DNA of 64,000 nt from Stichopus chloronotus. Lineage: Eukaryota > Echinodermata > Holothuroidea > Aspidochirotida > Stichopodidae. Where the stretch lies: NCBI GenBank assembly GCA_021234535.1, contig CM037839.1, positions 24,601,196 to 24,665,195 on the forward strand, in the 5' to 3' direction. Both the position numbers and the translations under genes were made by a program. The notes under the pieces were generated by a model. That model was given only the letters and a program-made list of their open reading frames with translations. It ran no database searches and was not told where the DNA came from. Shown piece by piece: positions 6,300-42,072 of this stretch (its first letter is position 1; every line of letters starts with the position of its first letter).

Positions 6300-6319
6300 T
6301 CACTGACAGGGGTGTTTAC
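6300..6319 (-). CDS. Gene B terminal coding exon (C-terminal Cys)
   Basis: A strong pyrimidine tract and acceptor (CTCCTTTTCATACAG) precede GTAAACACCCCTGTCAGTGA. In the required phase this gives G-K-H-P-C-Q-stop. It puts a Cys exactly 32 residues after the exon 3 Cys, the same distance as in gene A, whose terminal exon encodes G-D-D-C-stop. An ATTAAA polyadenylation variant on the minus strand lies near 6263-6268. Confidence 0.75.
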
Positions 6320-9300
6320 CTGTATGAAAAGGAGAAGAAAAGTGTGAGTAAAGTGTATTGGATATTGCACTCTTCCCGCTTTGCTGGAAAAGAAAAGTGG
6401 TATTATCTGGGTTCTGTTCACAATCATAAAAAGTCTTGCCCTCTTCCCAGTAGTTATCTGAACGATATGCTCATGTAAATCTCACCTTCCCACTTCACCC
6501 CCACCCCCATTCCTTGCAAAAAAAAAATGTATTCAATTGGCTGTCTGAATAGCGCATATACATTCATTATATTTTGCTCATGTTTGCTCTGTTTGTATTT
6601 CATTGTCAGAAGGAGGCACTGTCGTTTTTCGAAGTGACTGGGTTGTTAGAGTATGTATTAACGGATTCGGATATCCCGCAAATGACATACCTTCAAGTTG
6701 GACATCCCCTTCGAATTCTGGTCTGCTGCCACCGTTATGCAAATTACCTACGACCGTTACGTGAACGTCTTGACACTCACTTAAACTCTCAGTCCCTGCC
6801 GTGAATTCCACTGCCCAGTCAAAGTGGTCCCCGTGAGGGGCTGAGAATTGAAGAAATAAGCCATAGCAGCAAGGGAAAAGGGGTGCAAATTCAGGCAATA
6901 AACAGGAACAATTAGAGTTTGAAACAATTTTCTGCCAAAAGTTGAAAAAGAGAGACCCACGAATCAAGTAGCATTAAACTCAGTAATTTAAATAAATAAT
7001 AAAACTTGTTTAGCCAGTCTGACCGAGCAAAATATTTGTTTTTTCATTATTTCAGTTCTCATTTTGAAAGGAATTTAACTACCGCAGCAGTGAGTAGTCC
7101 AGTTGACTGCGAGAATTGAGAAAGATTTTGTAGTAAGAGCAAAAATCAGAACATCTCTTTAACTTGTTTGACAGTGTCTTTTATGTCTTTTAAACATCGC
7201 TTAATGAGAAGGAAATTTCAACGTTTTTTTTCCGAACGTTGTATAACTTGAAACTTTAAACGTCTATGAAACCATAACTCCACGATGAAACAAAGGCCGT
7301 TTGACAACAATGGCCAGTCCTTTTGGATTAATTTTTTTTTTGGTACTGATACTTTTATCCATAAAAATGTATATTATTGTATTATAGTATGATACCACAT
7401 ATTACTGTCATCAACCATGAAGTATAGCCTCATGCATCACACAGGTTCTTACATCAACACGTCTCCAGAACGGTAACTTGTTAGAATGAAATTCTAATGA
7501 AATGAATAAAATGACTCTTGTACTACTCTTGGATAACATGTAGATATGGAAGATAAGGAATACATAAAGAAAACAGCAACAGTGCTCTCAATCATCGACA
7601 TTTCTTCTCTGCTGTTTTCACTGTCTTTAGTTTTTGTTCTGTAAATCTACAAAAAAACTTTCAACAGTGTGGATGTAAAAATCTGCAGTGTCTACAGTTC
7701 CGAAATATCTCCAGGCAATGGAACGATTTCGTGCAATAACAGGAAGACCTTATCATGTGAAATTATACATTATTCATGGCAAACCTCGCGGTCGTTGTTT
7801 AAAACATGTTCAGGGTTTTTCTCTTGCGAAATACTTTAAAATAACTTCTGATTTTTTTTTTTTTCATCCAAAGTTCATTTCATTCTTTCGTGAACATCAT
7901 ACATGACATGTAACATGTAATTCTATTGTGTTACTTATCAATGTATTGGTTTACTGTTGAAGAAGATTAATACATTCTTTTCATATGCAAAATTCTCCCA
8001 GATGTTTCTCAGAAAATCAACAAAAAGTATAAGCAGTCGATCATAATCAATAAGTACCCCAAAATAAGCACATCTACATCGGATGGAGACGAAAACAAAA
8101 GAAAAAAAGACAAACAAAGAAAAAAACTAAGAGGAATTAAGGCAATAAGAAAGAGCATTACAACTTCGTCACGTCTCGTTATTCTTCGTGGAGAATAGCT
8201 GGATTTAGAGAGAATATGGTATACACAGGAACTAAGGCCAACAAAAGGATAAAAGGATAGCGAATAATGGTTAACTTAGTACAGAAATCAACGTTTGACA
8301 TAACACCAACACCGTAATAAATGAGGTCCTTTAAATGCATAACATTCTATCGATCTTAAAGCAGGATGTGCTGTTTGAAGGAAACAAATAGCCTTCATCA
8401 TTTATTCCCCATCATTCTCTTCCATTCGATAGCAATCTGGAAAATACCATCTACGATATGTTTCTTTCAGGAGAAATTCCATTCATTAGATTGTTAATTA
8501 CGGCAGAAAGAAGAGTGATTCATTTTTTTTTTTTCGGGTAAAAAGTTAGCGGAACCAGACCCTGTGGTAAATATGCGGCGCTTTCGCGCGAAGACGCCAG
8601 TACGAAAACGCATTGTTTCAGGAAATTAGGCTTTATTTGGACATAGAAACCACTGCACGGTAGTTTGTACAGCTTTTTACAACTATACAAAATATAGCCA
8701 GTCTTTTGGTGCACTTTTAGCAAGTGCAGGAAAACAGCACATCCTGCGTTAATACAATAGTTGTTCCAGATAGCTTGTTTACTATAATTTTTCGTGGGGA
8801 TGGTGAAATATAATGAATTTCAAGCCTGGAAAACTTGTTATAGAAAAATATTATCTGTGAATGTAATATTGACAGAGGTAAAACAACAGAGAAACAGAGG
8901 AACAAACGGAGTAGAATAATGGTAGAAGCAAATTTTTAAAAGAACATTATCCCAGGTAATATAACGTTTCACCCAAGGCATTTTAAGAAAATTAATGAAA
9001 CTTTTAACTGTAATTTTAAGTCCTGCTTTACCGTAATCATCGTCCTCCTTTAAATTTTTCTGGAATTTGGACCAGATGAAATTCAAGATGGTACTTTGAA
9101 CTTGATTAAATCACGAATCCCGTGGATCGGAGGGGGGGGGGGGAACTTGAAAGAGAAATACTAGTTGGAAGAAGGCAAAGGATATATCTACAATATTTCT
9201 TCCGATTGGGGTAAGGTTTCAGCTCTACCAAACATTTACATATATTTTAAGAGGAGATAACTTGTTAATTTTAGACGATATATGTCGTCACCATTATGAG

Positions 9301-12300
9301 TAAGACAAATTCCGAAGTTTAAAATCGGATATCAAGTTATAGTGATACTTAACTAAGGGACCAAGTGGAAAAAGATGGGAGTTTTTGAAGGTTCATTTTT
9401 AGACCAGAGGCGAAATCGTCAAAAGCAATGTCGAAGAAGAATAGATTTCAAGGAAATTACGGCCTCCGTTGAGAGAAAGAACTGTATCATCAGCGTAAAA
9501 ATAACTATAACATTCATCCAAGTCACACGCTTATCATGCTATCAGGACAGTGAGATTCATTTTGAGGGCGACATTCCTGAAATATATTCCCTAAAGTGAC
9601 GATACCTTGCTTTGCCATGATCAATTATTTTGAACATTGTATACAAACTCCATTTCATGAAGACCTGAAACATGCTTGAAATGAGTTATATGTTCACGTT
9701 AATGTAAAGTAAGTATATATACTTTCATGTGGACCTGTCTTGATATTTTGAAGGTTATCAGTTAATGAGCAGTTCTATACTGGTCTCAATCGTTACGCAT
9801 GAAGGGGGGGGGGGGGGGCGGGCATGCCACATCCCCCTCCAGTTCCTCTACAGTGATATATCACATTGCATATCCCATTTAACGAAAAATTGTAACATTA
9901 GGCACTGAGGCTGCTGGTACTTTGGTGTGAATAATCAGTTGTTTCTGAATAGGGGTTTGTGGGAGTAGGTGGTTCCTCAACCTAAGAGGACATTTACATT
10001 ATTTTGCTGTTTGCCTGTCTGTCTGTCTGTCTGTCTGTTTGTATTTTTCTGGGGGCGGGGGACAAACTACAAAATAGCAGTAAATCTTACCTCCGTGATC
10101 ATCACTTTCGGTCAAGTCTTTGCCGTTGCTGATTTGGATGGTGAAATCAACACTGGTAAAATTTTCCCCTCTGGGTGCTAAAGGTATAAAGTATTAGAAT
10201 TGATGACAGTAACATATTTAAGGGAGAGGACAGAGAGACATTTACAAATAATTGACATCATTCATTAAATTAAGAACTTCAAAAATACCTTCTGAAAATT
10301 TGTTATTTTTAATATAGTTGGCAAATTTGTTATTTTTTTTGAACTTGCAGTCAAGTCGACCTCGACCTCTTAAAATCGACAATTTGCTGTGACATTAAAT
10401 AAGCTGACGATCAAGTGGACTCACTGACTTAATATCGATAATTGTGTGAAGATTTTGAAGGATAAAATCAGCATAACAATGCATTTTATTATCATTATAA
10501 TCTCATCGCCCTATAGGGGCTGAGATGAGATATTGTAGTCATTTGGCTAGTGGAGCTATATATTCTACTGTGCACCCATGGGAGAACGGTTGCCATGGAA
10601 ACGCTTTGAGTGGATGAGTGGCCACACCCAAGGGGTAGAGTGACCACCATTTCATCCGGGTCCTGTTGGGTGGTTTAAACAAAAACGTGTAAGTGCCGAT
10701 GTGTGTGGGTGTGCCATTGTTTTCGGGTGGGATTGAGGACCGAAACAATAGGTTTTAGGTCCTCTGTAGAAAATTCAATAGATTTCTCCGGTCCTCTCAA
10801 GATAAACAATAGAGAGTCTATTTTTAAGGTTAGGGTTGAGGAGGAAAAAACAAAAGAAAGCACAATGAGGTCCTCGGAATGAATGGAACAAAGTTGTGTG
10901 TGTGCGTGTGTATTCATCCGCACCTGTCCAAATTATGGTTTTTCCAGAATACCTTGAAAAGTACATGAGTGATTTAGTCTAAATTTGGTAATGTAGTGCA
11001 TGATGCCAAAATGTCCAAGATGTATTGGTTGTATGATTAATTGAGTGAAATTTGCTGATTTTTTTAGGAAAAAAGCCAATTTTGCCCCCAAATTGGTATT
11101 TCCAGGATATCTTGAGAAGTATTTGACCATTTAATGCAAAATTTTGCAAGGACTTACCTGAGAATGTAATATTCAAGATAAATCACTTTTGTAGTAAAGA
11201 GAGTGAAATTCGATGATTTGCCATTTTTGCCACAAAATTTGTATTTCCAACATATCTTGAGTACTATTAGACCAATTAACTTAAAGCTTTGTAAGGATTC
11301 ACATGAGAACACATTGTTCGACGTATTATTGTTGTAATTGGTAAATTCAGTGAAATTTTAGTGCTGATTTTTTAGAAAACCAATTTTGCCTCAAAACTTG
11401 GATTTCCACCATACAGTATCTTGAGAGCTAATTGAGCATTGTAAATAATATAATAATACAATAATAACAATAAATATATAAAAGTTTGCATGGCCTTCCT
11501 ATGAACACAATAATGAAGATACAGTTTATCACTCTTATAGTAAATTGATGAAATTTGATGATTGCTTGGTAAAACAAGAGTAGAGCCGTCATCCTGGTCA
11601 ATAGACATCACCTTTTTAATTAAAGACAAAACAATTTTAGCCGAAATGGGCCCTGTGTATAATGTATTTGAACATTCTTGTCAATTATGAGAACGTTATT
11701 TTTTAGTCAAACAATAATTTTAGCAGAACTACACCTTGCATAGGTAAATAGGATACTAATGTGCAAATAACCCATAGAGGGATGCTTCTATATCATGCCC
11801 CTAACTCTAACCACTAAGCCTAACCTATATGGAGAAAGTTTAACCCAATGTTGTAATTGTCTTATGTATCATAATATGTACAGATACTTTTGAGTCGTTA
11901 TTGTTATCGTTACTGGAGCCTAAGTAGTGGCACCCGGCTATGCTTAAGCTTACTAGTACAGTACCTAGCAGCAGCTACGAATATTACCATTTTATGTTTG
12001 GTTCTTCTGCTTACGACCATTTTATATTTGAGGAATATTTGGCTCTAATTTAGAGTCAGCGCTCGGGACTAACAACAGGGAGCGTCCTGTTATTCCTGTA
12101 GGTCTCTGTGGTTGCGGTAAGCTATTACAAATCCCCCATGTGCAGCTTCTGTATTTAAGACTTTATTGATATCAATGAATGTTAATGATGAGATACGCAA
12201 ATCCCTGGATTGCCTTCTTGTTACTATAATTAGTCACGTTTCAGATCCAGTAGTTATGGTAACTGTCAAAAGGTTTGACTTGCTGCTGCTCACTTGTAGT

Positions 12301-13924
12301 GACCTTGTGAATACAAATAAGTGTGTAAAAAGTGTCTGGTCACGAATTTTCAAAATCTATATTGAATATTGCTCGTTGATGTTCATCTGTATGACATATG
12401 GGAATCCTCGTAGTTCGTCCATCTGTCATTAGTATGTAAAGGAAACTTGACAGGTTTAGGGAAATTTAATGAATTTCAGGAAACAACTCAATGTGACTCT
12501 TTACTGACCTGAATTAAGACAAAAGAAACCAAAATATGTGGAAGAAATTTGGACTATTCTATACGCAAATGAAATTAGTAAATATTATGTTTAGCTGACT
12601 ACAGATGATAAAATTCGTTGAATTGCTTGTCTTGTTTTTTCCATTATAAAGGCTTTAAAAAACTAAGATCATTCACACATGATCTTCTGTATAGATGAAC
12701 ATATAGACTTGTAACCCACGTTCAAAATCGGTGCTGCAAACTACGAAAGAATATCTTGCTATGACGTAACATTTTTCCATACCACAAAATTCTGAAAATA
12801 AAACTTCTTGGAAAATGTTTCCTCAGTAAAAATGCTTGCGTGCTCACCTCATCTCGACATGATAAACTTCAATCGTTCACTGAATTGATGTAAATGACTA
12901 ATCATCCGTTTTAATACAAGCGACATAATGTTTCTGCAGTGGTAGTATGTTCAAAGATGACACAGCCTCTCCCCTTCGGTATGTTTTGGTAATCAAAATA
13001 AGTAAAGTTACATAAGTTATATATAAATAAGTTAAATAAGTAACAACTCTTTTCGGAAACTGACTTTAGAATTCCAAAGAATTCGGTTGACCTCTGATAG
13101 AGTCCTTTCAGATATAACGTTTGGTTTATGAGTTGTAGCCATGCCGACTCTAGATAATACACCAAGGAAAATAAATGAGGTAAACACATTCATTTTCCTC
13201 TTCTCCTGAGTATATGAGAAGAGGAAAATGAATGTGTTTACCTCATTTATTTTCCTTGGTGTATTATCTAGAGTCGGCATGGCTACAACTCATAAACCAA
13301 AAGTTATATCTTTTCGGAAAAAGATGAACATGTATCAAAGTGTGACCTGAAAATTCCCCCAGCAATTCCCACCCAGACAATTCCCCCACAATTCTCCCTC
13401 TGGCAACCTCCTCTTGGACAATCCCCCCCCCCCCCCTCGATCAACCACTTGGACAATTCCTACCCAGACAATTCCCATCCTGGAGAATTCCCCTTGGACC
13501 ACCCCCTTTCCGACAATTTCTTTATGAAAAGACTTAGGGTTATGGGTGGGAGGGAATTGTCTGACTGGAAATTGTTCTAGTGGGGAATTGTCCGAGAGGG
13601 GATTTTCCAACAGTTAATTGTCCAGGGAAAGTTGTCCCGGAACCGTATCAAAGTAAACGTGTGATGGTTGTATAGGCCTACACTAGGAATGAGGATACTA
13701 ATTTGATTCTTTTTCAAGTTCGTTTTACATCATCATTAATAACTTATTGATCGATTGCGATCGATACCGTGAAATATCAGGATGACTTTTTTGTTGACGT
13801 CGATAGACCCTTCCACTGCGTCCTCGTGATGATGGTCGTCATCCTCGTCACTGCTATGTGAGCCACCATGGTGAGCATATACGCATGCTCCCAAAAGTAA
13901 GAACAAAAGGAGAATACACTTCAT
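6300..13924 (-). CDS. Gene B: small secreted two-cysteine protein with PHGDHxDW motif (4 coding exons)
   Basis: Assembled from exons 13924-13768, 10177-10091, 6840-6691 and 6319-6300, giving 414 coding bases and 137 aa. All three introns are GT-AG and phase 1. Residues 1-17 are a signal peptide (MKCILLLFLLLGACVYA), so the product should be secreted. The predicted mature chain starts HHGGSH and runs into an acidic/His stretch (26-35). It then has an APRGENF segment (53-59) with an NFT glycosylation sequon, PHGDHFDW (83-90), Cys104 and Cys136, with Gln137 last. Length, intron phases, motifs and the 32-residue Cys spacing match gene A at 37.2-42.1 kb. I do not recognise the family. The His-rich start suggests metal binding, and the two cysteines probably pair; both points are inference. 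No TATA box is obvious upstream. Confidence 0.85.
6691..6840 (-). CDS. Gene B coding exon 3 (PHGDHFDW motif)
   Basis: 150 bases. The acceptor is TTCTCAG at 6841-6842 and the donor GTATGT starts at 6690; both ends are phase 1. It encodes PHGDHFDWAV, ECQDVHVTVVG and PEFEG, matching PHGDHTDWIV, YCDDVSIVVEG and TEFNG of gene A exon 3. It holds the first mature cysteine. The frame runs open beyond both splice sites, which hides the exon inside a longer false ORF. Confidence 0.88.
9370..9600 (-). pseudogene. LINE reverse transcriptase fragment
   Basis: On the minus strand one frame reads YSYFYADDTVLSLNGG, with the YADD active-site box at 9497-9486. About 25 residues on, a shifted frame reads FDDFASGLKMNLQKL, the SGLK-N motif that follows YADD in LINE reverse transcriptases. 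At least one frameshift and an upstream stop break it. It lies in gene B intron 2 in the same orientation. It is too short to place in a clade. Confidence 0.6.
10012..10040 (+). repeat. (CTGT)n microsatellite
   Basis: About six CTGT units in gene B intron 2's close flank, followed by a T/G-rich stretch. Confidence 0.85.
10091..10177 (-). CDS. Gene B coding exon 2
   Basis: 87 bases between an acceptor TTTAG and a donor GGAG|GTAAGA, phase 1 at both ends. It encodes PRGENFTSVDFT near its start, aligning with PSNENFDKVRFT of gene A exon 2, and ends in an acidic ESDDH run that gene A lacks. Confidence 0.85.
10589..10602. promoter_or_regulatory. RFX X-box-like palindrome
   Basis: GTTGCCATGGAAAC is one base off the symmetrical X-box GTTRCCATGGYAAC bound by RFX factors. 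It lies in gene B intron 1. A single site can occur by chance, so any regulatory role is conjecture. Confidence 0.25.
10725..10925. repeat. Repeat with AGGTCCTC blocks and GT-rich tail
   Basis: GGTCCTCTG, GGTCCTCTCAAG and GAGGTCCTCGGA blocks with AATTCAATA recur near 50590-50660, again beside a CA/GT-rich run. This makes it a dispersed repeat end. The four overlapping short frames here are by-products. Confidence 0.5.
10928..11590. repeat. Tandem array, ~150-bp monomers (family C)
   Basis: The block 'TTTCCA...ATCTTGAG..GTA' recurs near 10940, 11097, 11241 and 11400, a spacing of about 144-159 bp. Other shared blocks are GAAATTTGCTGATTTTTTAG-like and CAATTTTGCC. The last monomer carries an AT-rich insertion near 11440-11480. 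No terminal hairpin was identified for this family. Confidence 0.7.
11640..12900. other. Gene B intron 1 sequence, no feature seen
   Basis: AT-rich intronic DNA. An 88-residue plus-strand frame at 12166-12432 is antisense to gene B. It has no recognisable motif or splice context, so I treat it as chance. Confidence 0.4.
13111..13310. repeat. Near-perfect palindrome: 95-bp arms, 10-bp loop
   Basis: Left arm 13111-13205 and right arm 13216-13310 are reverse complements with one mismatch (13120 against 13301). The spacer is CTGAGTATAT. The arms are AT-rich and show no transposon ends or target duplication. It lies in gene B intron 1, so a transcript would fold into a long hairpin. It may be a recent inverted duplication or an assembly or template-switch artefact. 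Confidence 0.92.
13335..13645. repeat. Foldback array of GACAATTCCC units
   Basis: The left half (13335-13510) is built of imperfect GGACAATTCCC units. The right half (13550-13640) is built of the reverse complement, GGGAATTGTCC. The centre lies near 13525. A C run interrupts the left half near 13427. This mirrored array of short degenerate units matches the plan of foldback elements. The 91-residue minus-strand frame is repeat-encoded. Confidence 0.7.
13768..13924 (-). CDS. Gene B coding exon 1 (signal peptide, His/Asp-rich segment)
   Basis: The ATG at 13924 opens a textbook signal peptide. The exon ends in ATATTTCAC-G before GTATCG at 13767, phase 1. The last residues (KKVILIF) align with gene A exon 1 (NSLRILF), which fixes the donor. 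The frame stays open past the donor, so a single-exon reading would give a false 82-residue protein. Confidence 0.82.
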
Positions 13925-14199
13925 TCTGTCTCGACTGGTGATGTACAACAATCTGTGAATATCAAGGACAAAAACAATTAACACAGGCCTAGTTATCGTT
14001 GAAGCATCTGCTCAAAGAAGTCATATGTGCCGTGTTTAGTGCGACTCCTAAAAACAAAACATTTCATTTTAATCACGTTTTGGCACGTTTACATATTCGC
14101 GCGTTTCTTCCTCAAGTGCATTGGCTTGCGAAGACAAAAGCTGAACTTTATGAAACTAGTAGACATTTGTCCCTAGATTATTGGCCAGTTTGTAATTAG

Positions 14200-14905
14200 T
14201 GATGAATGAGGATTGTTTGAAGACTATCTAAGAGTAGCGCCAGCAAAGTTTGGAACGGAACGTATCAGAAAAACATACATACCCCCAATCCCACAGACAC
14301 ACACACAGACCTAGATTACTGGAAATCGTCCTTCCCCGGCTCAGCAAGTAAGCTCTAGAAAGTGGTATTGTCAGTACTATCTTGGAGGAAATATTAATCT
14401 TACTTAGGGTGTCGAAAAAGTCTGATCATATTTGAACATTTCATGATGAATACTGTATTGTACTTTAATTTGAAGGCAGAAAATTGGCGACATCATCATG
14501 ATCATTTCCTGGATATCAAGGGCGGTAAAGTACTCAAACTTGCATTTTCTTAACACTTTTTTTCAATTTGTTTTTCTCATTCTTATCTTTTTCTATCTTT
14601 TTGATTATTTTTTCCTTTCTGTGGAAAGCTGAAAGGGTGCCAGTAATCCCCCTGAGTCGGTCAGGGTGGGGACTGCCCCCCCCCCTCAGGCTGACCATAC
14701 AAAGCTCCGCTACTGATTCATTGTGGGCTAAATGCAAAATGGTGCTTCATTTAAATGTTTCTGAATTGACCATGAATTCCTATGTTTCAGTTAAGTAACG
14801 ATTATTTTTGTTATATTTAAATACATACTTATCTATAGTTAAAGCATGAAGTGCGAATTTGTGTGTCACTGATAGTTGCTAATTATCCCATTTACCCCTC
14901 CTTAG
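14200..14905. other. No gene seen
   Basis: AT-rich spacer between gene B and the exon candidate at 14.9 kb, with short frames on both strands around 14534-14798 that I cannot support as coding. Confidence 0.4.
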
Positions 14906-15109
14906 AACAACCGCTGGTCTGCGCTCCTCAACCATTGTAGGTACCAGTTTTCGCAGCCGAAAACGATACTCTCCACGTCGCACTCTCGTAGAGATGACAG
15001 TGCAAAGGCTCTAGCTCGCTTTCACCGGCTGACGGGGCAAGTACAATTTAAACCCTTCCTGGATGACGAAATTTGTGAATGCTTCATCGTGGTTTCAAGA
15101 GGACAGCTT
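14906..15109 (+). CDS. Candidate internal coding exon, product unrecognised
   Basis: A 204-base block is open for 68 codons between an acceptor (CCCCTCCTTAG, ending at 14905) and a consensus donor CTT|GTAAGT at 15110, phase 0 at both ends. An in-frame stop overlaps the acceptor, as expected for an intron boundary. There is no ATG, so it would be internal. The peptide is not low-complexity and includes SRRDDSAKALARFHRLTG and FLDDEICECFIVVSRG. The frame stays open 18 more codons past the donor, so a 3' variant is possible. I found no convincing upstream exon; a possible downstream exon may begin near 15678. I do not recognise the family. Confidence 0.42.
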
Positions 15110-15501: not shown

Positions 15502-15560
15502 CTCCTCACACACACACACACACACCCTCACCCGCACACGCACACACACACACACACCTT
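15502..15560 (+). repeat. (CA)n microsatellite
   Basis: Interrupted CACACA runs with CCGCACACG interruptions. No repeat-family hairpin follows it. Confidence 0.85.
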
Positions 15561-17460: not shown

Positions 17461-17464
17461 AACA

Positions 17465-21100: not shown

Positions 21101-21105
21101 CTAAG

Positions 21106-24584: not shown

Positions 24585-24641
24585 AAAAATGACGTGAGTT
24601 CATGATACGTCAAGAAGCTACATTAAAGCAGGAAGCACACT

Positions 24642-24832
24642 GGCCAACCACCTATCCGACCATCAACCACTGTCCAACCACCTGTCCGACCATCAACCAC
24701 TGTCCAATCACCTGTCCGACCATCAACCACTGTCCAACCACCTGTCCGACCATCAACCACTGTCCAACCACCTGTCCGACCATCAACCACTGTCCAACCA
24801 CCTGTCCGACCATCAACCACTGTCCAATCACC
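24642..24832. repeat. 30-bp minisatellite, about 6.4 copies
   Basis: Exact 30-base periodicity, seen as two identical units per 60 bases from 24661. The units are nearly identical; the only change seen is C/T in CCAACCACC/CCAATCACC, plus one A/G in the first partial copy. Because 30 is a multiple of three, every frame is open and both strands give 75-90-residue repeat ORFs (TINHCPTTCP or a Trp/Val/Gly-rich reverse). These are probably not genes. Confidence 0.95.
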
Positions 24833-27689: not shown

Positions 27690-28740
27690 CTTTGGAGTTC
27701 TACCTGAATTCAGTTGCTGAGATATCTTCCTTCATATGTTTTTATACTTTAAGCTCTGTAGACCTCGACCTTCACAAAAGATGACAGACATTATCTACTC
27801 ACTAGGTGCTACCAATGGTAAGTGTTTGAAGTTCCAGCAACATTTAGTTGCTGAGATATCTCCTGTAATATCTTTTCTTACTTTAAGCTCTGTAGACCTC
27901 GAATGACCTTTGACCTCCATGAAAATAATAGGCATCATGTACTCACAGTGAACTACCAACACACCAACTTTGAAGTTCAAGCACCGTAAAGTTTCCCTTC
28001 TCGATATACGGTGTTCACAACGTTTTCACACTATGTCTTCTATTGACGTAACATGACCGTTGACCTTCACAAAAGATGACAGACATTATCTACTCATTAG
28101 GTGCTACCAATGGTAAGTGTTTGAAGTTCCAGCAACATTTAGTTGCTGAGATATCTCCTGTAATATCTTTTCTTACTTTAAGCTCTGGAGACCTCGAATG
28201 ACCTTTGACCTCCATGAAAATAATAGGCATCATGTACTCACAGTGAACTACCAACACACCAACTTTGATCGAATGACCTTTGACAGCCATGAAAAACAAT
28301 AGGGGTCATCTACTTACCATGGACTACCAAGACACCAAGTTTGATAGTCGAACACCTTTCCTTTCTTGAGATACTGTGTTTACAAGGTTTTCAAATAATG
28401 TCTTTCAACAATGTCCTCTATTGACCTCACATGACCTTTGACCTCCACAAAAAAAGGAAGACATCATCTTCTCATCAGTTGCTACCATTATGGTAAGAGT
28501 TTGAAAGTTCCAACAACATTCGGTTGCTGCGATATCTATCTTGATAGGTTTTCGTACTCTGAGCGCTGGTGATCTCAAATGACCTCTGACGTCCATAAAA
28601 AAAAAAACAATAGCGATCACCTACTAACAATGGACTACCAACATACCAACTTTGAAGTTGGAGCACCGTTCCCTTCTTGAAATATCGTGTTTACAAGCCA
28701 AGGCGTCACATACCCGCACACACACGCTCACACCATGACC
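27690..28740 (+). repeat. Family A repeat array with a 295-bp tandem duplication
   Basis: Perfect TGACCTTTGACCT sites occur at 27904, 28199 and 28432, and degenerate ones near 28266 and 28579. A block of about 190 bases starting ATGACAGACATTATCTACTC at 27781 is repeated nearly unchanged at 28076, showing a recent duplication. The array ends in a CA run (28710-28730) and TTACCTTGCAAGAAATC, a decayed right hairpin. Short frames on both strands are shadows of the array. Confidence 0.85.
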
Positions 28741-31270: not shown

Positions 31271-31299
31271 TCAACAGTATGCGTCGGCAAACCCAATCC

Positions 31300-33370
31300 G
31301 AAATACTTTGATCTGGGAATAATTTAGGTACAATTATGGAATCAAGGCAGCAATTCAGAATCTTCTCTCATATTGAGCATCGACTCTGCCAATTAATATT
31401 GTCACTTTGCATCCAAGAATCAATAAAATTAATTTAACCTAAACTGTGCAAATAAAGTGAGGATAATAATGCATGATCAGGGGTTAATACAAGCGATACA
31501 TGGCAGGGGTGCAGAGTGAGGTCATCCAACAATAACATTTTAACTCCCAGCATTGATTAACCTTTCACATTCGCACACAGTGTGGACTCGGAGGATGAAA
31601 ATTTGTTTGGAGTAATATTATCCAATTTGACATTTTACCAATCCAGCAAAATGTTTCATGGAAATTTTGAGGAAAAATGAAAGATGAGAAAAACATGGAA
31701 TGCAATGAATGTGAGAGATAGCCTAAAACACGAAATGTGAAACCACGTATCAGACACAACCAGAAGTCAACATGATAGTCCATAAAACAAGATCAAATAA
31801 TCATTTTAATATCTTTCCCATATTTTTTTATACATGCAACCATCAGGATTTGGGGAGAACTGGTATTTATTTGAGCACGACTGGGGGGGGGGGGGGGGCG
31901 GCAACAGCCTAAACTATAGCCTAACGTTAGGCTATTTTAAAAAGGAAGTTAACAACTTTCACATACTATAACAAGTTTAAGGGTAAAGGAGGGCAAAGCC
32001 CCATAAGATGCCCATAACTTTATTAGATTCATGTGGAGTTTGAATGTCTCTAAGCTAGACTGTAAAGTTTTATAGGCCTGTATCAGACCTGTCAAGACCT
32101 GTCTGGTTTTACCTGGAGACTCCCGGCTTTTATACAGATCTCTACAGGTTTCCTACTCTCATCTCTCTGTTTTTCCACTTGCGACATTCCTGACAATAGC
32201 CAAAACAGTTAGCACAAGCCTTACTTTTTGAGCAATTGGCCACAGACTAACATATAGTGCATTGAAAAAAAAATCAGATTTTTGTCTACAAAATTTTTAG
32301 CTGTTATACGATAGATAAGTATAACACACCAACAGCAGGTTGCTTTGTAAATAATGCGTTAGTTTATGACGGGCTGTGCATACAGAAGGGCGTATTAATA
32401 AGGTAGCCATCGACTGCGCGGGCCAGTCGAACGTGCCTCTAGCCTAACATTCACACATTACAACTTTTGAAAGCTTAGTTTATGGCAGATTGAAATAGTC
32501 AAGCACGCCACCATATTGTTGTCATTTTTGACACTAAATCAACGAACGGCAGGTGCACTCGACGGGCACTTTGGGGGAAAGTTAAGTTTGTTTGGGTTGT
32601 CGTAAATAAGGTGGAATAATTTCACCTTTGGTGACAATTTTTTGTTGCAATGAATACATATTCATTTGAGACGATACTGATTTATAAGAAAACGTTCCAC
32701 GCTTTGTAGGTTTAACTGCCACAAAATTGGAATGATAAATTTCCTTAACAGCGCTGGTGTTCGACGGTCACCCCCATTATACATGCACCTGCAATGTACG
32801 TGAAAATAGCCCTTCATGGGCAACCTGTGCTGTGGATGCTGTGGGTGATTATTCTCTTCGTGACCCTTTTTTTTTTTTTTTTTTGAAAGTTACTTTTGTT
32901 TTTACTAATCTCCCGATTTTTGGGCTCTGGAAAATTTAAATCTCCCTATTTGTCTGTGAGACAGTTTGGAGGGTCTAATGTATATTACACATGCTACCAA
33001 GTGTTAGGCATAACGTTAGGCCTAATCAGGGAGTAAGGCCTAACGTTAATCAGTAACACTGAACACCCTTTTGAGTAAGATTGTGACTGGCCCTCGACTG
33101 AAAGGTGAAATGAAACAAATTATTTTGGGAAAACCCACTCCGTGGTAAAATACGACTTTCGTGCCAATGACAATGTTCCTTTTGTTGTTTATTAGGCCCT
33201 TTCTATTTATTGATATTTGCAGACGCGGATACTGAAAACTAGGCCAAGGCAGTTAGGCCTAACAAGGGTGTTGAGGTTGTGTTCGCTTGATCCATCTTCA
33301 GAAAATTGTGAGATCACACGTATACTGTACAGTGCTGTGCTGCTAACTGAGACATTTCATCACTTGTAGC
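31300..33370. other. No gene seen; TAGGCCTA/AACGTTAG-rich stretch
   Basis: No supported exon. The stretch has the palindrome CTAACGTTAG near 31920, similar AACGTTAGGC strings near 33010 and 33045, two TAGGCCTA octamers (33017, 33254), a G run near 31885 and a T run near 32866. Confidence 0.4.
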
Positions 33371-33394
33371 AGAGAAACTGTCCAGTGATCTGCG

Positions 33395-34368
33395 CATAAA
33401 ATGAACCAAAGGGCCGACATGGGATCCTGGACCCAAAAATCCTGAACATCTAAAAGGAACCACTTAGTGTATCAATATGACAAACCATCGACATTGTACA
33501 ATAGAAGGTAGAGAGGTAGGGTAGGGAGGTAGAGCATTTTGCAGAATTTCATAAAATGGGCCAAAGGGACCACATGGGACATTGTACCGAACATTCCTGA
33601 ACAACCTGAGGGCATCACTAATAGAGTATCATTATGAAAAACCATCAACATTCTATGAGGGAATCTGTAGGAGGAGAAGCATCTTGCAGAATTTCACAAA
33701 ATGAGCCAAAGGGCCCACATGGGACCTTGGACGCAAAATTCCTGAACACCCTGATGGTACCACCGTTGGAGTATCAGTGACAAACCATCAACATGGTGCA
33801 AGAAAATCGTGTAGAAGGAGAAGCGTTTTGCAGAATTTCATAAAATGGGTCGATGGGCCCATATGGGAGCTTGGACCTAAAATTCCTGGACACCCTGAAG
33901 GCACCACTGATGGAGTATCATTATGACAAACCATCAACCTTGTACACGGGAATCTGTAGGAGGAGGAGAATTTTGCAGAATTTCATAAAATGGGCCAAAG
34001 GGCCGACATGGGACCCTAGGCCCAAACTTCCTGAACACTTCACATGGTCCACCACAGAAGAAACATCGGGGGTAAGTTTCAAACAAATCCATGAAAGCAT
34101 GTAGGAGATGGAATATTTTACAGAATTTCATAAAATGGGCCAAAAGGCCCACAGGGGACCTTGAACCCCACGTTCCTGAATATCCCAAATGGTACACCAC
34201 CTAAGGAATATTGTGTGTAAGTTACAAATAAAAAAATACATCAAAGGAGGAGAAAAAGTAGAAGTAGGAGGGGATGCATTTTGAACAATTGTGGACAGAT
34301 GGATAGACAGAAGGATAGGAGTGACACCTCATGATCGCATAAGCTCACACCAGCATGCTGGTGTGAGC
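33395..34368 (+). repeat. Family B array: six ~145-bp monomers plus terminal palindrome
   Basis: The block TTTTGCAGAATTTCATAAAA then GGGCCAAAGGGCCCACATGG-like sequence recurs near 33541, 33688, 33832, 33974 and 34121, a spacing of 142-147 bp. A first partial unit starts near 33397. Each monomer continues with TTGGACCCAAAATTCCTGAA and GACAAACCATCAACATT-like blocks. The array runs into GATGGATAGACAGAAGG and ends in the perfect 26-bp palindrome at 34343-34368. Reading frames are repeat by-products. Confidence 0.9.
34343..34368. repeat. Perfect 26-bp palindrome closing the family B array
   Basis: GCTCACACCAGCA is followed directly by its exact reverse complement, with no loop. It sits where family A repeats carry their right hairpin, so it is probably the functional end of the element. 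Confidence 0.9.
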
Positions 34369-34629
34369 ATGTCTTAATACATTGTGAAAGCAAAATATGA
34401 TTAATGGTGACATATGCTATCTCACCTAAGATCTGACATCCGAAAATTTACTTTCTTTGTGTACTGAGGTAAGCAACGTGTATTTTTCACAGTACGGTGC
34501 AAAATACGTGGCGGTGTAACTGCATAAATTGCCGAATTTTGATGTGTGAGGGCTAACATTGGTCTAATTTCTCATTGAAATTGATACAAAATGGAGAAAA
34601 AAGTGCTGCACTGAAGAAAACGCCAGAAA

Positions 34630-34960
34630 AATGCCAAATGGTAGTTTGGCGTCTCCTCCAAATATGGTCCCGCCAAACTTCCCCCAAAACGCCAAATTCC
34701 CCTTTTTTTGACGGCAAAACCGCCAGACTGACAACGCTGTTGCTTGTGCTGCGCGAACGTGTGAAACTATTACACCTACCATACGAAGTCCTTCCCCCGG
34801 CACGTGACCCTCCGCCATTTTGTCCATTGGCCCGCTTCTGCCAGCTATTAGGATTCCGATATCTATGGTCACTAGGTGTCAGTGCGACGTCGCAGTTTGG
34901 GACGAACGGCAAAACTCGACTTGGCTAGTGGACGAGGAAGACGTGACGCATGCGCAGACA
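34630..34960. promoter_or_regulatory. CpG-rich, TATA-less, possibly bidirectional promoter
   Basis: This GC- and CpG-rich island holds a cluster of conserved animal promoter motifs. There is a CArG box CCAAATATGG (34658-34667) next to an E2F-like TCCCGCCAAA (34668-34677). An E-box CACGTGAC lies at 34801-34808, a YY1-like CCGCCATTTTG at 34812-34822 and an inverted CCAAT (ATTGG) at 34826-34830. A palindrome GCGACGTCGC spans 34884-34893 and an NRF1-like CGCATGCGCA spans 34947-34956. Several more TTTGGCG/CGCCAAA strings lie at 34640-34700. Candidate first exons lie on both sides. The ~100-residue overlapping frames on both strands come from the lack of AT-rich stops. Confidence 0.55.
34780..34818 (-). 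CDS. Possible first coding exon of a divergent minus-strand gene
   Basis: AAAATGGCGGAGGG combines a good start context with a YY1 site, a common arrangement in housekeeping genes. The frame reads MAEGHVPGEGLRM and reaches a donor GTAGGT at 34779, phase 0. Without the splice it stays open for about 70 more codons through the promoter island. No second exon was found, so this is tentative. Confidence 0.28.
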
Positions 34961-35066
34961 CTCAACATAGTCTCGAATCAGTCTACTATACGTCGACGAA
35001 CAAATCGAAAGCATCCTGTAAAGGATGGGTGTTCTGGCATAAGGCATACTTGTCTCCCATTCTGTA

Positions 35067-35210
35067 ATGACCTGTGCGTACCTCTTGCAGATAACCCTGG
35101 TGAATGGAGCGTATAAGCTTCCGTTGGCGTGTAAAGAGTTTTTAATCGGAGTAACACCAGACACAACTTCATTCGTAGAACACGTCGCCTTCCTGAGCAG
35201 TCTGGTAGTG
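35067..35210 (+). CDS. Candidate first coding exon downstream of the CpG promoter, unrecognised
   Basis: From an ATG at 35067 the frame is open for 48 codons (MTCAYLLQITLVNGAYKLPL ... FVEHVAFLSSLVV) up to a consensus donor GTG|GTAAGT at 35211, phase 0. A good acceptor (CCTCTTGCAG, ending 35090) lies in the same frame, so the true exon may be 35091-35210 with upstream 5' exons. It lies about 110 bases downstream of the NRF1-like site, where a first exon is expected. The peptide is mostly apolar with no clear signal peptide. I do not recognise it. Confidence 0.4.
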
Positions 35211-36560
35211 GTAAGTATCCTTTGGTTTTAATAGAACACACGTGGTTCGCTTCATTTTCTTATTCTTTAGGTTATTTTTCCTTTCTGTGATCGTTTCATG
35301 TATTGTTTTGTGGTCTCCATTCATATGTGCAATGCTTGTAAGTGGCGATAGCTTATACTGAAGAGCCTCTAGGGTCATTGCATTTAATCCTCCTTCTGAG
35401 GCTAAAAACAAGTGTTCATAGCTTGGCCAACTTTATCATTTGCATTTACGATTCTCATCATTTGTATTTGTTATACTCGCTTTGTCCACACGATATTTTA
35501 CTTCCCAATGGATACTTTTTAAGTTAAACGGAAATATTCGTTGTTTACAAAAACACATGACACAAAAAACACAGGAAGAAAATTTTCTTTTCAAGAAAGA
35601 AATACATTTTCACGGATAGAAATCCAGTTACTTGTTTCTCAAGAATAGTTTCTTCGTATAAGTTTCTTCAATACGTTAAAAAAAATTCAAATGATGCATC
35701 TTTGGTGACTCTTATGCATACTATTTTGAAGAGATGACGCTATTGCCGATTTTTGACGGTGAGACTGAAAGGTTTACCGTTTTAACGATGAACCAACTGT
35801 TTTCACTGTATATGCCGTTTTGTTTATATTTAAGTGCTTCCCTCTACATTGATAGTCAAATCAGAGATGAGGATTTTCTGAACACTCACATTAACCTCCA
35901 TCGGGACGATGATTCTCATGCAGTGCACTGATGATATAAGGAGACCCATGTCGGTCTAACTGAAATCGTGCTTCCGATATAGTTAGCAATATCTGTTGAT
36001 CATGTTTTGCCAGATCTACATAATTAACATAAACATACTCGTCATTCCATGTTGGAATCGACTGACCCCCCTCCCCCCGATAGTAGAAGACGCTTCCTCT
36101 ATCCTTTAAAGGGAAATAGGGCGTTTAGAATACACCAACATGACATACAAAAGAAAATAGCTTTATTCATTGTTAAACCATCCAGTCTCATCAATAAACA
36201 TCTATCATAGTTTCATCTTCTCAAAACATTATGCATGTAAAGAGTAATGGAACATGCACCATTTGAATTTTGAATAGTTTGGGTGAACAAATTAGCTTTG
36301 AGCAACAAGTGAGTGAATTTCTACCTGTGGGGAGCTTATTTCTTGAAAAGAAGGGTACTGTCCTTCCTTACTTTGAACAATCTATCATTCTACGTCCACA
36401 AACATTGGTTTCGAAAATATGGATGTTTTCTCTAAACCAAACACCCTATTTTCCTTTAATGCCACGAATACTACGTTTATTCAGGGTTAATTAAGTTATC
36501 AGAGTGTTACAAAGTACAAACTAGTCGAAGGTCATAATCATGCCCTCTTCTCTCTTTTAG

Positions 36561-36605
36561 AGAGAGATTGTGTATTCTCAACGTAGAAATGACCCCAGGA
36601 TTTAA
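36561..36605 (+). CDS. Possible terminal exon following 35067-35210
   Basis: A very strong acceptor (GCCCTCTTCTCTCTTTTAG) precedes a phase 0 frame of 14 codons (REIVYSQRRNDPRI) and a stop. Joined to the previous exon this would make a 62-residue protein. The pairing rests only on phase and acceptor strength; the exon is too short to judge by composition. Confidence 0.2.
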   Translation, partial: REIVYSQRRNDPRI

Positions 36606-36989
36606 CTGGTGACTATACATGTTGGCCAAGCTTGGTTTATTTTAAATTGATCAGCATTAATGGAGTGTGTCGTGATTGGTAAGAGTTAATCAATACGGTG
36701 TATGAGTTTCAATAATATGAAAACTGGCACTGGGAGAGGGAAAATAGCATCTGCGATACACTGAAAATGCAAAAATCCGTGATTCACCAAGGTGTATTTA
36801 GTAAATGCTGTACAACTGATTTGTCAGATAAGGTTCTCCTAAGTAAGAGACCATTTAGTCTTTTTCTGCTTTTTTAAGGGAGATCTGTACCCCATCTGTT
36901 AGTTAGTTGCATGTCCGTTCATTTTTAATCCTTCGAACCACTGACTTTTTGCACGGGGTTGTAATCAATACGTAAAAACAACTACTACT

Positions 36990-37151
36990 CTGTAAAAAAA
37001 AAAATGTCTGTAAATTTACAGAAAATAAAACAAAGAAATAAATAAGAATTACAGAAATTGTCTGGAAACTAATAACCAACCAGAACATTTCTGTATTCCT
37101 TTTGTATTTCTTTACTTTATTTTCTGTAAATTTACATTTCACAATATACAG
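36990..37151. mobile_element. Foldback MITE, ~80-bp arms, in the gene A promoter region
   Basis: Arms 36990-37070 and 37076-37151 are imperfect reverse complements with ends CTGTA/TACAG. The best-matching part is TGTAAATTTACAGAAAATAA against its complement near 37105-37135. It ends about 90 bases before the gene A start codon, so it lies in or beside the core promoter. No coding content. Confidence 0.78.
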
Positions 37152-37241
37152 TTTTATACGGTGTATGCTTTTACTTCATAAACAGATTGCAATTTACCCT
37201 CCGGTGTAAAGATACCAAGAGAGCATACAAACGACTAGAAG

Positions 37242-37377
37242 ATGTTGCGTTTAGCATTGTTTTTGGTGGCGGTCTACGCATACGTTCACAATGGAAACGC
37301 AGACACGCATAATCATGGCGAGCTTGTACACCTATACCTTAATGCTTCCGCCAATAGTCTAAGGATCCTCTTTGAAG
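37242..37377 (+). CDS. Gene A coding exon 1 (signal peptide)
   Basis: The ATG at 37242 follows AGAAG. The exon ends TTTGAAG|GTAAGAA, phase 1. It carries the signal peptide, the His-containing mature start and an N-glycosylation sequon. Confidence 0.88.
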
Positions 37378-40300
37378 GTAAGAATCAGAAAATTCTTTAA
37401 TTTTATTTGCACACACTAAGAGATAGACAGTATATGATAGAGTAGTTTCTTTTTCCTTTTCTTTTGTGGAGCCTAGCCCTAATTTCACTTGATATCACAG
37501 GCACATGTTTCAACGTTCCTCTCCTCGAGAGTACATAGATTGACCTTCAGTGCACCTCATAGAAATTATCATTTCCGTTCCGTATCTATTGGTCCACTGA
37601 TTTCGTTTTTATCAGGAGATAATATAGATATATATATCGGTATGACGTTGCCCCCATGCCATTTCCTTCACTATGCAAGTAGCGCCATTAGGATTTTAGA
37701 TCGGGGTACAGAAGAAATCGTTGCGGGCAGAAACTTTCGTGCTAATCGAGTGCAAAGCCCAAGCCCCTGAAAGTTCTGCCGTTTTAAGATGTCTCTGGGT
37801 AAAAAAGTAAGTCTCATGGACTTCCGAGAACTGAAAGGAAAATGAAGTATTGAATAGCAACTTAGCCGTTATTAAGCTTCAACCCGCAAGACAATAATTA
37901 ATTTTCCCAGAATCAGTGATGTGCGTTTTTCGAGTCAAATTAAAGCTGTTGTTACTCACTCATTGCAATGGAATAATCCCATTATTATATAAGCTTATTC
38001 TGGTAGGGAAAGTCCCATTCGTGGTACCAACTTACATGTCACACCAAGGGCAAACATATTTGTGACTGCATTCGAGACTATACTGGCAGTGTATTTCACA
38101 ACTCGTTTAGTGCCACCCCCCCCCCCCCTCCTTCAAAAAAAAAAATCCTTCACTTTCACTAACTTTTGTAAAGCATGATGGGGTACAACTAAATTGTAGC
38201 CTACATGTCTATGAGGATACTAAAACGAATGCATTTCCCTGTTTTTATCAGACTCTTCCCCCCCCCCCCCACCCTTATAATTTATCAGCAATCTTCCCAC
38301 AATCGTCTGCAGCTCACTCACCACGGAAAGGGAAATTTTATTGCGGGATCGGCAAAATGTACCACTTCAGGAAGAATCGTCGAAGACCATTCCGATCTGT
38401 GCAGATGAAAAGAGAATTTATTAAATATACTATCTACTTAATAATTTGTGGCAGACTTAAATATTGACCTTTTCATAAGTGGCGCAAAAACTGATTTATT
38501 AAATCATCTCACTTGCCTGATATTATTTACCCCTCTCATTTATTTCTAAACAGCCCCTTCGAATGAAAATTTCGACAAAGTCAGATTCACCGCGGGAAGT
38601 CTACAACAGACAGACTTATCTGGGGGTGAGTTCAATTGGTTGTGAGCCGATATATGCTATGTTAATATTCGTACTCTATTTTTTTTAATCTTCGCTAGGT
38701 TATATTTTGTACGTTCATTTTCGCATGATGAACACATTAACTCCACATTTACACTCCCAGTCCCCCCCCCCCCTCTCCCATAATTCATGTTTTACTTCTG
38801 ATGAAGGTGTAGCAGTTTCCTTGAATGTAGGTCCAACTTTCATGTCACTACCCAGAATCCTTAGATCGACATCATTAATTAATATCTCATGAACATCCCT
38901 CGAACATCCGGGCTCGTTTGAGCCATCAACATTTTTGTCGACGGTCCTGTGTAATTGACTGTAAAAGTGTTTGATAGGTCAATTGAATAATTTCAAATTA
39001 TTGGACCATGTAGAAACATGTTTTAGCAAAGAAAGTTCCCTGATTTGCTTTCTTTAAAAACCACGATCGTAGAAAGAGGTAAACTGCATAAGGCAACACA
39101 AGTAGTCTATTCTCGCATTGCTGTTTTAATATGCGATATTCTTAGTGTACATTTCTTAGTTAAAATGTCACTCATTTGTGTGTGTGGGTAAAGGAACGAC
39201 TGTGACTGGAACTGATAGGAAAAGATTGGTTCTAAGTTATAGCTGTTTATGTTACTACATCACAAACCAGCTGCTTGTAAACACATTTGTAATTTGGTAG
39301 CGCTGCGGTAACATTTTTACCGTCGTGCGACATTTTGGAGTATTGAGTGTATTCATCATTGAAAATGTTGAAGACAGCCACAAATTCCATCAAATTCCAT
39401 CAAAGATTGACTTTTTCACGAGCAAATTCCTTTCTCACACCTGCATCGGGAATAAACGTTGACTGGGCCTAAATATTCCACTTTGTGACGTCATGAGATG
39501 GACTCCTATACAATCATTTGTCTACTTAACCATATTTCAAGGACAGTTGGAAATTTTCTATGCTCGGAAGACTTTATTTTGGGAGCATATATTTTCTTCT
39601 TTAGAACATTGATATATATATATGTATATATATTTATATATATATTTCCATACACACAAAAATGGGCTTTGAATAGTTTCATAAGTATAAAGACCAGAAA
39701 GCCAGGGGGCTTTGTGATTCCCTGCCATATGTAGATATAATTGTAACAGACATGAGTCACCAACACGACAATTATAGTACTAGATTTTATTGAACGTTGC
39801 CACTAGTTACCCGAACATGGATGGCGTTCTTGCTGATTTCCCCGATCAAGGAGATAGACCACAAACTTTTGGATCCTTCTGATATGTCTGTATAGGTTTT
39901 CCGGGAGTGAGTTTCTTGTGATAAGGGATTGTTACATTACAGGCAATGCAGCCTTTACAAGTTTTCTATTATGGGTGTCACTACGACCTACTGTATGAAC
40001 GCATTTATACAGTACGTCCTGTAAATACATTAGCAGTTTCTGAAGAAAAAAATAGCCTAATAGCAGGCACTGTGAAATACATAAGACACCTAGTTAAGTT
40101 CTGAGCAATCTGTGTGAATTAATCTGCAATCGGAAGTCGTTATAAAACAGTAAAATGTGGTAATATCTGTGGCATGATGGTGTGACAAGTAGTTGATTTA
40201 GTTCATTGCAGTCGGACGACGACTCGACTTCCGAATAAACGTGTTTAGACAATTTACTCTATGTAGCAGTTTTCTGGTTGATATCTCCCTACCGGATCAG

Positions 40301-41797
40301 TCCCTACCGGACACGTTCAATCAGCTATACCGATTGAAACAGATGGCTCATTTTAGATGATAGCACAGAATTTCAAGGTGAAAAGGCACTTTAAGAGCGC
40401 CACCGATATCGATTATACTTACAATACTCATGAAGGAGACGATCAGATCAATCACTACACGGTGCAGGCGCCGTCGGGTGTAGGGAGGTGTTTCTTAAAG
40501 CCCCGCCACTCCACCACCCAGATTTACTAGAAGCATTCCACTCTGACGTAAAAATGATCCCTAATGATAACATACGAGACGTGTTTTTCACAGTGCTACT
40601 TTTGAAGACATTTATCCCCCCACTGTAAGAATGCCCAGCTGAGAACACTGGCCAGTTTAGCAATGTGAGCAAAGGGTCGAAATGGGGGAGGGAAAGAATC
40701 ATGGTTCCACCCGGATCGTGGTTTGTTTTCTACACGGACAGTCATCAAAATGAAGCCCCACCATTAGTTGGCCCATAACGTACCGAGAAAATTAAAAATA
40801 TTCCTCACAAATTGCAAGAAATGGCATTTCCCAGTCCCTTGTTAATTTCAGCTAGATTTTCATGAATTATTAACACAAGTTTCTGAGGAAATTTATCGCG
40901 ACACTTGCAACAAGAATGCATTGTGGTTTCGATGATCCGGTTATCAGCATTTTTTTGCTGAATCTGACATCGCATTATTATGTTTCAAAGGTCACCTATG
41001 CTTTCTATGAAGTATGAGATCTTTACAAGCTTCCTTTCATGAGATCATGATTACAAGGTTTTCACAAGGCTTTTCCTTTGCCCTCCATTGAAGAACAAAT
41101 GGATCTTGTACTCAATGAGATACACCTTCATCTTAATGGGAGGTCTGCCCAAGTTTTCTCTTCTTGAGATATCGTGTTTAGAATGTTTTCACAATTTGAC
41201 AAATGTTGACCCCGAATGATCTTTGACCTCTACCAAAATCAAAAACATTCGATTTCTTTGGCTCAATGTTGTTCACCTATGTACTAAATATGACATCTGC
41301 CCAAACTTTTTTTAACAGGGTTTTCACAATTTGACCCCTGTTGACCCCAAATGACCTTTGACCTCCACCACAAACAATAGGGTTCTTCTGCTCAATGTAG
41401 TACACCTGAATACCAAATATGGGATCTGTCCAAGCTTCCATTCTTGACATATTGTTTACAAGGTAAGGCGTGACGGACATACATAAACACACACACACAC
41501 ACCCGCATCATCCCGCATGCACACACATAGGCATGATTAGAAAGATTACGATTATCATCGAAACCAAAAATCAAAGTATGGATTCGTTTTGATTGGTTAC
41601 CTCCACTTCTTTCCTTTTTAGATCCTCACGGTGATCACACTGATTGGATTGTGTGGATTCACTCCAACAGCTTTCAATATTGTGATGATGTCAGCATCGT
41701 GGTCGAAGGGTATTTTTCTTCTACAGGAACAATAAGGACAGAGTTTAACGGCCAAAAGGAAATTCCGGGTGAGAGACTGAAACTTAACCTATCATCC

Positions 41798-41829
<32 letters not shown>

Positions 41830-42072
41830 TATTTAGTATTATTTACAGGGTTTCTTTGTCTAAAACAGTGTTATTTGTAGTGTTTTATTCTTGACTAACC
41901 TGGTGTTGCTTAATTTCGAATCCTAGTTTTATGTACAGCGTTTTCTTTATGTCTTACCTAGCGTTATTCATAGTGTTTCGTTTATGTTTAAGCTGGTTTT
42001 ATTTACAATGATCTTTTAAACGCTAACTACAGCATTATTTGTGTCTCTTTATGCCCAGGAGATGATTGCTAA
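37242..42072 (+). CDS. Gene A: small secreted two-cysteine protein with PHGDHxDW motif (4 coding exons)
   Basis: Exons 37242-37377, 38554-38625, 41622-41768 and 42059-42072 give 369 coding bases and 122 aa. All introns are GT-AG and phase 1. Residues 1-20 form a signal peptide (MLRLALFLVAVYAYVHNGNA). The predicted mature N-terminus is DTHNHG, an X-X-His start of the copper/nickel-binding ATCUN type. An NAS sequon (34-36), APSNENF (46-52), PHGDHTDW (71-78), Cys90 and the last residue Cys122 follow. The Cys spacing of 32, motifs, phases and exon lengths match gene B. TTTTATAC near 37152 may serve as a TATA box, and AATAAA at 42234-42239 fits as the polyadenylation signal. I do not recognise the family. 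Secretion is well supported; metal binding and a disulfide are inference. Confidence 0.88.
38554..38625 (+). CDS. Gene A coding exon 2
   Basis: 72 bases between TTTCTAAACAG and GGGG|GTGAGT, phase 1 at both ends. It encodes PSNENFDKVRFTAGS and ends DLSG. It is too short for an ORF search and is supported by its match to gene B exon 2. Confidence 0.87.
39660..39790 (+). repeat. Family A left-end module in gene A intron 2
   Basis: AAGCC-AGGG-GGCTT hairpin, GTGATTCCCTGCC, then TTGTAACAGACATGAGTCAC. A TA-rich run (39610-39650) precedes it. Confidence 0.65.
40980..41540 (+). repeat. Family A array in gene A intron 2, with DR1 sites and CA tail
   Basis: About three monomers. GATCTTTACAAGCTTCC-, GTCTGCCCAAGTTTTC-, CATCTGCCCAAACTTT- and GATCTGTCCAAGCTTCC-type blocks lie at roughly 41030, 41143, 41292 and 41426. 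A perfect DR1 lies at 41352-41364, with TTGACC five bases upstream giving three half-sites. A degenerate DR1 lies near 41217. The array ends in a CA run at 41488-41503. The last copy stops about 80 bases before exon 3. Confidence 0.85.
41622..41768 (+). CDS. Gene A coding exon 3 (PHGDHTDW motif)
   Basis: 147 bases between TTCCTTTTTAG and CCGG|GTGAGA, phase 1 at both ends. It encodes PHGDHTDWIVWI, QYCDDVSIVVEG and RTEFNGQKEIP, including the first cysteine. Confidence 0.9.
41795..41830 (+). repeat. (TA)n(TG)n microsatellite in gene A intron 3
   Basis: An alternating TA run followed by a TG run, just inside the 3' intron of gene A. Confidence 0.85.
42059..42072 (+). CDS. Gene A terminal coding exon (C-terminal Cys)
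   Basis: After the acceptor ATGCCCAG at 42058, the required phase gives G-D-D-C-stop, making Cys the last residue. It parallels the G-K-H-P-C-Q-stop exon of gene B. Confidence 0.78.

Follow-up and report, generated by a model that had tools for sequence, protein, structure and literature searches.

Do two small genes on opposite strands of one stretch of DNA belong to a single protein family, and, if they do, what might the products of that family be for? The question is raised by a window of 64,000 nucleotides (C11:24601196-24665195, called the window throughout) in a genome of 719 Mb and 267 contigs, which was searched as a whole and is taken to be that of an animal because matches resembling SPTLC1 and AEBP2 flank the locus. 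An initial annotation of the window proposed a pair of paralogous, apparently undescribed secreted proteins of 122 and 137 amino acids (aa). In this paper we describe these genes, A and B, together with a third gene, C, which lies outside the window, and a predicted protein, P0001, which resembles all three, and we conclude that A, B and C almost certainly form a genuine gene family. We also consider, more tentatively, a role for its proteins in the binding of metal ions.

Gene models

Gene A occupies positions 13924-6300 of the minus strand, where four exons of 157/87/150/20 nt encode 137 aa, and gene B occupies positions 37242-42072 of the plus strand, where four exons of 136/72/147/14 nt encode 122 aa. 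Both were found in the span given by the initial annotation, which had put them about 23 kb apart (23.3 kb, from 13924 to 37242), and the four exons, near-equal exon lengths and phase-1 introns that it described were recovered, with GT-AG boundaries and phase 1 in six of six introns. No stop or frame break occurs in any of the three gene models, that of gene C included. The features of A and B, in window positions, are as follows; the leave-one-out test is described below.

13768..13924, minus: gene A exon 1, 157 nt; predicted signal peptide, His- and acid-rich segment HHGGSHSSDEDDDHHHED and first predicted strand; donor gtatcg
10091..10177, minus: gene A exon 2, 87 nt; APRGENFTSVDFT; GT-AG, phase 1
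6691..6840, minus: gene A exon 3, 150 nt; PHGDHFDW and cysteine 104; leave-one-out E 7.3e-6
6300..6319, minus: gene A exon 4, 20 nt; last cysteine, 136, and stop; GT-AG, phase 1
37242..37377, plus: gene B exon 1, 136 nt; predicted signal peptide and His-rich segment; donor gtaaga
38554..38625, plus: gene B exon 2, 72 nt; APSNENFDKVRFT; leave-one-out E 1.8e-4
41622..41768, plus: gene B exon 3, 147 nt; PHGDHTDW and cysteine 90; leave-one-out E 1.8e-12
42059..42072, plus: gene B exon 4, 14 nt; GDDC and stop, with length and ending as in gene C
42234..42239, plus: AATAAA, possible polyadenylation signal of gene B, 161 nt past the stop; motif match only

Two acceptors fit the length claimed for the last exon of gene A. 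The alternative exon, 6270-6289, lacks the cysteine, and the exon ending in GKHPCQ was preferred because B, C and P0001 likewise end in cysteine. No promoter or 3' end common to the genes was detected as a cross-gene blastn match (E<=1e-3) in the 2 kb upstream or 1.5 kb downstream. An inverted repeat with 57-nt arms, 86% complementary and separated by a 14-nt gap, lies at 37009-37136, approximately 105 bp upstream of the gene B start codon, and may be the remnant of a small transposable element.

Relatedness of genes A and B

The proteins of A and B are 31% identical (BLASTP E 2e-17), and the motifs that had been reported in both, AP-x-x-ENF, PHGDH-x-DW, C-x-DV and EF-x-G, are present in each. 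The late cysteines, C104/C136 in A and C90/C122 in B, are 32 residues apart in both proteins, as had also been noted, and the same interval is found in P0001; as a rule for the family, however, it fails, the spacing in gene C being 30.

The standing of the individual exons was examined by a leave-one-out procedure, in which an exon profile built without one gene was run against 12,124 six-frame segments of 262 kb. Exon 3 was recovered at E 7.3e-6 in A, 1.8e-12 in B and 1.5e-5 in C. Exon 2 scored 0.87 in A, with an unrelated segment at 0.57 in the same test, 1.8e-4 in B and 1.2e-3 in C, and exon 1 scored 1.3, 0.1 and 0.021 in A, B and C, respectively, where the best unrelated segment reached 0.24 in the A test and 0.096 in the B test. 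Unrelated segments beat the true exon four times in the nine tests (exon 1 of all three genes and exon 2 of A). By these values exon 3 is proven on its own, as is exon 2 in B and C, and, given their weak scores, the first exon of every gene and the second exon of A rest on splice sites, phase, place and recurrence in three genes. The BLASTP and exon 3 values bear out the earlier judgement that the likeness of A and B goes beyond chance. Identity at codon positions 1/2/3 is 0.49/0.63/0.32 for A-B, 0.54/0.63/0.47 for B-C and 0.43/0.54/0.30 for A-C, which is the pattern expected under selection at the protein level.

An internal duplication giving rise to exons 2 and 3 was considered and not adopted, the joint shuffle test over A, B and C giving 0.031 of 1000. 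Exon 3 of A does resemble the second exons of A, B and C, where the fraction of 500 shuffles that did as well was 0, 0 and 0.004, but not that of P0001 (0.316). For the third exons of B, C and P0001 no such resemblance was seen with any exon 2 (shuffle fractions 0.07 to 0.95).

A third gene and a joined relative

When the whole genome was searched with exon 3 of B (E<=10), three matches were obtained from four scored candidates, namely B itself (1.3e-30), A (0.006) and a further locus 24 kb past the window (0.02). Gene C, at this locus, has four exons with GT-AG boundaries, all in phase 1:

C11:24679391-24679529, plus: gene C exon 1, 139 nt
C11:24683077-24683148, plus: gene C exon 2, 72 nt
C11:24689473-24689607, plus: gene C exon 3, 135 nt
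C11:24691088-24691101, plus: gene C exon 4, 14 nt

Its start lies 36 kb downstream of gene B, and it encodes 119 aa with the same anatomy as A and B. The protein shows 41% identity with B and 31% with A and ends in GDDC as B does, and the last exon is, as in B, 14 nt long. A scan of the wider locus for more copies, which the initial annotation had suggested, was thus productive, and although the paralogy it claimed stands, the word pair does not, since there are at least three genes. The cluster runs A(-), B(+), C(+) over approximately 84 kb. Across the 262 kb, profiles of exons 1, 2 and 3, built from the same three genes and P0001, gave E<0.01 for A, B and C only, the next segments scoring 0.24 or worse. 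A whole-genome search with full-length B at E<=0.001 recovered only B's own exons; the genome-wide copy number is at least three, only the best candidates having been scored in the whole-genome search. One flank of the cluster holds a 36-residue fragment matching serine palmitoyltransferase 1 (SPTLC1; PDB match E 4.6e-9; L016) and the other an AEBP2-like zinc-finger open reading frame (ORF) (E 8.7e-38; L011), and the two could possibly serve as synteny anchors in other species.

An alignment of A, B and C was also compared with 5.8 billion predicted proteins, where a single protein among 540 candidates, P0001, matched at E<=10. It is 122 aa long (E 3.6e-42), occurs on two contigs, the longest of 1477 nt, is 80% identical to gene C, and carries all four exon segments joined in one frame; the coding span of gene C, by contrast, is 11.7 kb. 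Because a contig of at most 1477 nt holds four segments that are spread over 11.7 kb in C, it is most simply read as a spliced transcript from a relative, with an intronless copy as the other candidate, and the joined segments give transcript-like support to the splicing of the genes. Against the same proteins, A alone had 12 candidates, none at E<=10, and P0001 alone had 10, of which only itself matched; this search needs shared five-residue words, so that distant relatives can be missed.

It could be argued that the exons match by chance or belong to decayed pseudogenes, and the first exons of A and B and the second of A, which are not individually significant and are matched or beaten by unrelated segments, lend this some colour. 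The E value of 2e-17 between A and B speaks against it, as do the existence of a third copy, the joined segments of P0001, the unbroken frames of three genes out of three and the bias in codon-position identity, and we regard it as very improbable.

Search for known families

None of A, B, C and P0001 has a Pfam family above cut-off (best Guanylate_cyc, E 0.087, and SFTA2, 0.098), A, B and C have no NCBIfam family above cut-off (best PRK14748.1, E 0.03), and no relative is present among PDB sequences (best E 0.74, 1.2 and 1). Pattern matches numbered 43 in bacterial and archaeal contigs and 43 in viral contigs, with none confirmed in either. Among the papers listed by searches of the open-licence literature none was on the A/B/C family, and the motif words of the family led to no relevant paper there. 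Within these libraries and the predicted proteins the description of the family as undescribed has held, and by sequence A, B and C are provisionally a new family of small proteins, predicted to be secreted; the term is provisional because animal proteomes lie outside the libraries searched, and orthologues are likely to be annotated as 'uncharacterized' in animal databases.

Orpin of sea cucumbers is a small secreted protein of 164 aa with an EF-hand pair, reported only from echinoderms and an acorn worm and often present in several copies (PMC9501386). The A/B/C proteins are likewise small, predicted to be secreted and present in several copies. Identity with Orpin was rejected, as no EF-hand is found in A, B or C (Pfam, E<=10) or in P0001 (E<=1).

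Protein features

The alignment of A, B, C and P0001 has 23 invariant columns, although C and P0001 are close and the alignment is nearer to one of three independent sequences. Six of the 23 are His or Asp (H16, D66, H72, D74, H75 and D92 in gene B numbering), and C90 and C122 are invariant too; one His, the HGDH core, a Trp and two cysteines are common to all four. Secretion, as the initial annotation had it, is predicted for A, B and C from a hydrophobic start and from cleavage sites allowed by the -3/-1 rule, which is not a trained predictor. His makes up 6 of 18 residues after the hydrophobic start in A, 4 of 15 in B, 4 of 13 in C and 5 of 13 in P0001. The rule allows cleavage just before the conserved His in A (HHGGSH) and in C and P0001 (HHGNCE), and each of the three starts that it allows in B (YVHNGN, DTHNHG and HNHGEL) carries His as its third residue. 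That the signal is cleaved close to or at the first conserved His is a plausible prediction, one that the rule allows in A, C and P0001 and not in B.

The two invariant cysteines may form a disulphide, and the predicted fold is a beta sandwich. The AlphaFold model is beta-rich and of poor quality, with a predicted local distance difference test score (pLDDT) of 53, and among the fold matches listed for it many are, by title, immunoglobulin-like (Ig-like) domains; no CopC or LPMO chain is among those listed, which excludes nothing. Isoelectric points from residue 18 onward are 4.3-4.7, and the paralogues are 31-41% identical around a fixed gene anatomy.

Possible functions

We propose, with a probability of about 0.35, that the A/B/C proteins are secreted binders of metal ions that act through their conserved histidines. 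Signal cleavage would expose the N-terminal amine and the His side chain in A, C and P0001; this exposed His, or the start of B with His at position 3, would chelate copper, zinc or nickel in a site completed by the H-x-D-H loop. A start of the form X-X-His is a known copper/nickel motif. A transition-metal ion would then be held between the His-rich mature N-terminus and the invariant HGDH loop of a disulphide-closed beta sandwich, and the extracellular role of the proteins might be to carry or scavenge metal, or to serve as effectors that depend on it.

The nearest known systems are the histidine-brace proteins, which include LPMOs, CopC and the signal-strapped bacterial metalloproteins of PMC12537917. 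According to that source, metal chelation by a His at the N-terminus is independent of the fold, variants of the brace occur in LPMOs, CopC and methane monooxygenase, LPMOs have an Ig-like fold, and an Asp can add to the site (PMC12537917). Points of likeness are the predicted signal peptide, which the rule permits to be cut immediately in front of His in A, C and P0001, the small predicted beta protein and the conserved Asp and His. The family differs in that no LPMO- or CopC-type profile matches A, B, C or P0001, and in that the rule permits no cleavage at the aligned His of gene B. To our knowledge, moreover, histidine-brace proteins lack the His-rich tail, the HGDHxxW loop and the C-terminal cysteine.

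In favour of metal binding are the invariant His and Asp, the beta-rich model with its Ig-like matches and the His enrichment after the hydrophobic start (binomial probabilities 3.5e-6 in A, 4.3e-4 in B, 2.3e-4 in C and 1.1e-5 in P0001). Several observations weigh against it. The binomial values assume a background of 2.5% and apply to stretches chosen by eye after inspection, and His- and acid-rich tails also occur in proteins that do not bind metal in vivo. No allowed cleavage in B makes the aligned His16 residue 1, one placing His23 first instead, and the -3/-1 rule also allows five other starts in A, four in C and three in P0001. The AlphaFold model draws the signal peptide as a strand and at its pLDDT cannot show a site. 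Metalloprotein profiles gave no match (Pfam for A, B, C and P0001; NCBIfam for A, B and C), and the metal-response element TGCRCNC is absent from the 1 kb upstream of all three genes. A narrower form of the proposal, in which three diverged genes between SPTLC1 and AEBP2 make up an animal-only metalloprotein family, independent of LPMOs and CopC, with an N-terminal His chelate, freed by signal cleavage, that forms with the HGDH loop a copper or zinc site on a small disulphide-closed beta sandwich, is in our estimate unlikely.

The low isoelectric points, the strong divergence of the paralogues within a fixed anatomy and the lack of any enzyme profile above cut-off would all suit a lineage-restricted structural or host-defence protein, that is, an acidic beta protein of small size, secreted into mucus, body fluid or the extracellular matrix, whose histidines serve pH-dependent assembly or surface charge and form no metal site. 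We regard this as only slightly less likely than metal binding; HGDH is invariant in four of four sequences amid diverging surroundings, which is more than charge alone asks for. The same loop, with its neighbours, might instead form the binding edge of an Ig-fold protein such as a chagasin-like cysteine-protease inhibitor. Chagasin/ICP inhibitors are alike in length (approximately 110 residues) and, if the pLDDT-53 model is right, in having an Ig-like beta sandwich, but no Pfam family match links them to A, B or C, which have two invariant cysteines and the HGDH in addition, and the chagasin/ICP loop motifs, as far as we know them, are not seen in these proteins; such a role appears improbable. 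Small, clustered, divergent paralogues with predicted secretion also bring to mind a signal or pheromone-like protein, with one ligand per paralogue. No feature tested is specific for that role, however, and the HGDHxxW core, invariant in four of four, would be unexpected in a peptide ligand, so that we give this explanation little credence.

Repeats and other elements in the region

Degenerate repeats with a TGACCTTTGACCTCC-like core occur at window positions 27708-28345, 41185-41377 and 50035-50340, one pair of them inside intron 2 of gene B. A tandem array with a period of approximately 145 bp lies at 33395-34232 and contains five 69-nt cores, 72-81% identical to the first; a 30-bp tandem repeat of 6.5 copies (96% matches) is found at 24638-24832, and dense 16- to 32-bp tandem repeats in both orientations fill 59673-60469. 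A reverse-transcriptase-like fragment at 47432-47818 (plus strand) matches RVT_1 at E 4.5e-5, below the curated cut-off. Two near-identical ORFs, L026:5326-6204 and L024:2253-3032, both on the minus strand and approximately 6.7 kb apart, carry a tandem 11-residue repeat, KLQLIKDVYHK, in differing copy number and look like a recent local duplication.

Implications

Should metal binding be shown, A, B and C would provide an animal case of N-terminal-His chemistry outside the named families; should the proteins bind no metal, they would still offer a clean set of three genes in which to study the divergence of secreted proteins. To the many unnamed secreted proteins of animals they add a coherent family whose genes share one anatomy and a sharp signature, and for which a metal site is predicted in testable form.
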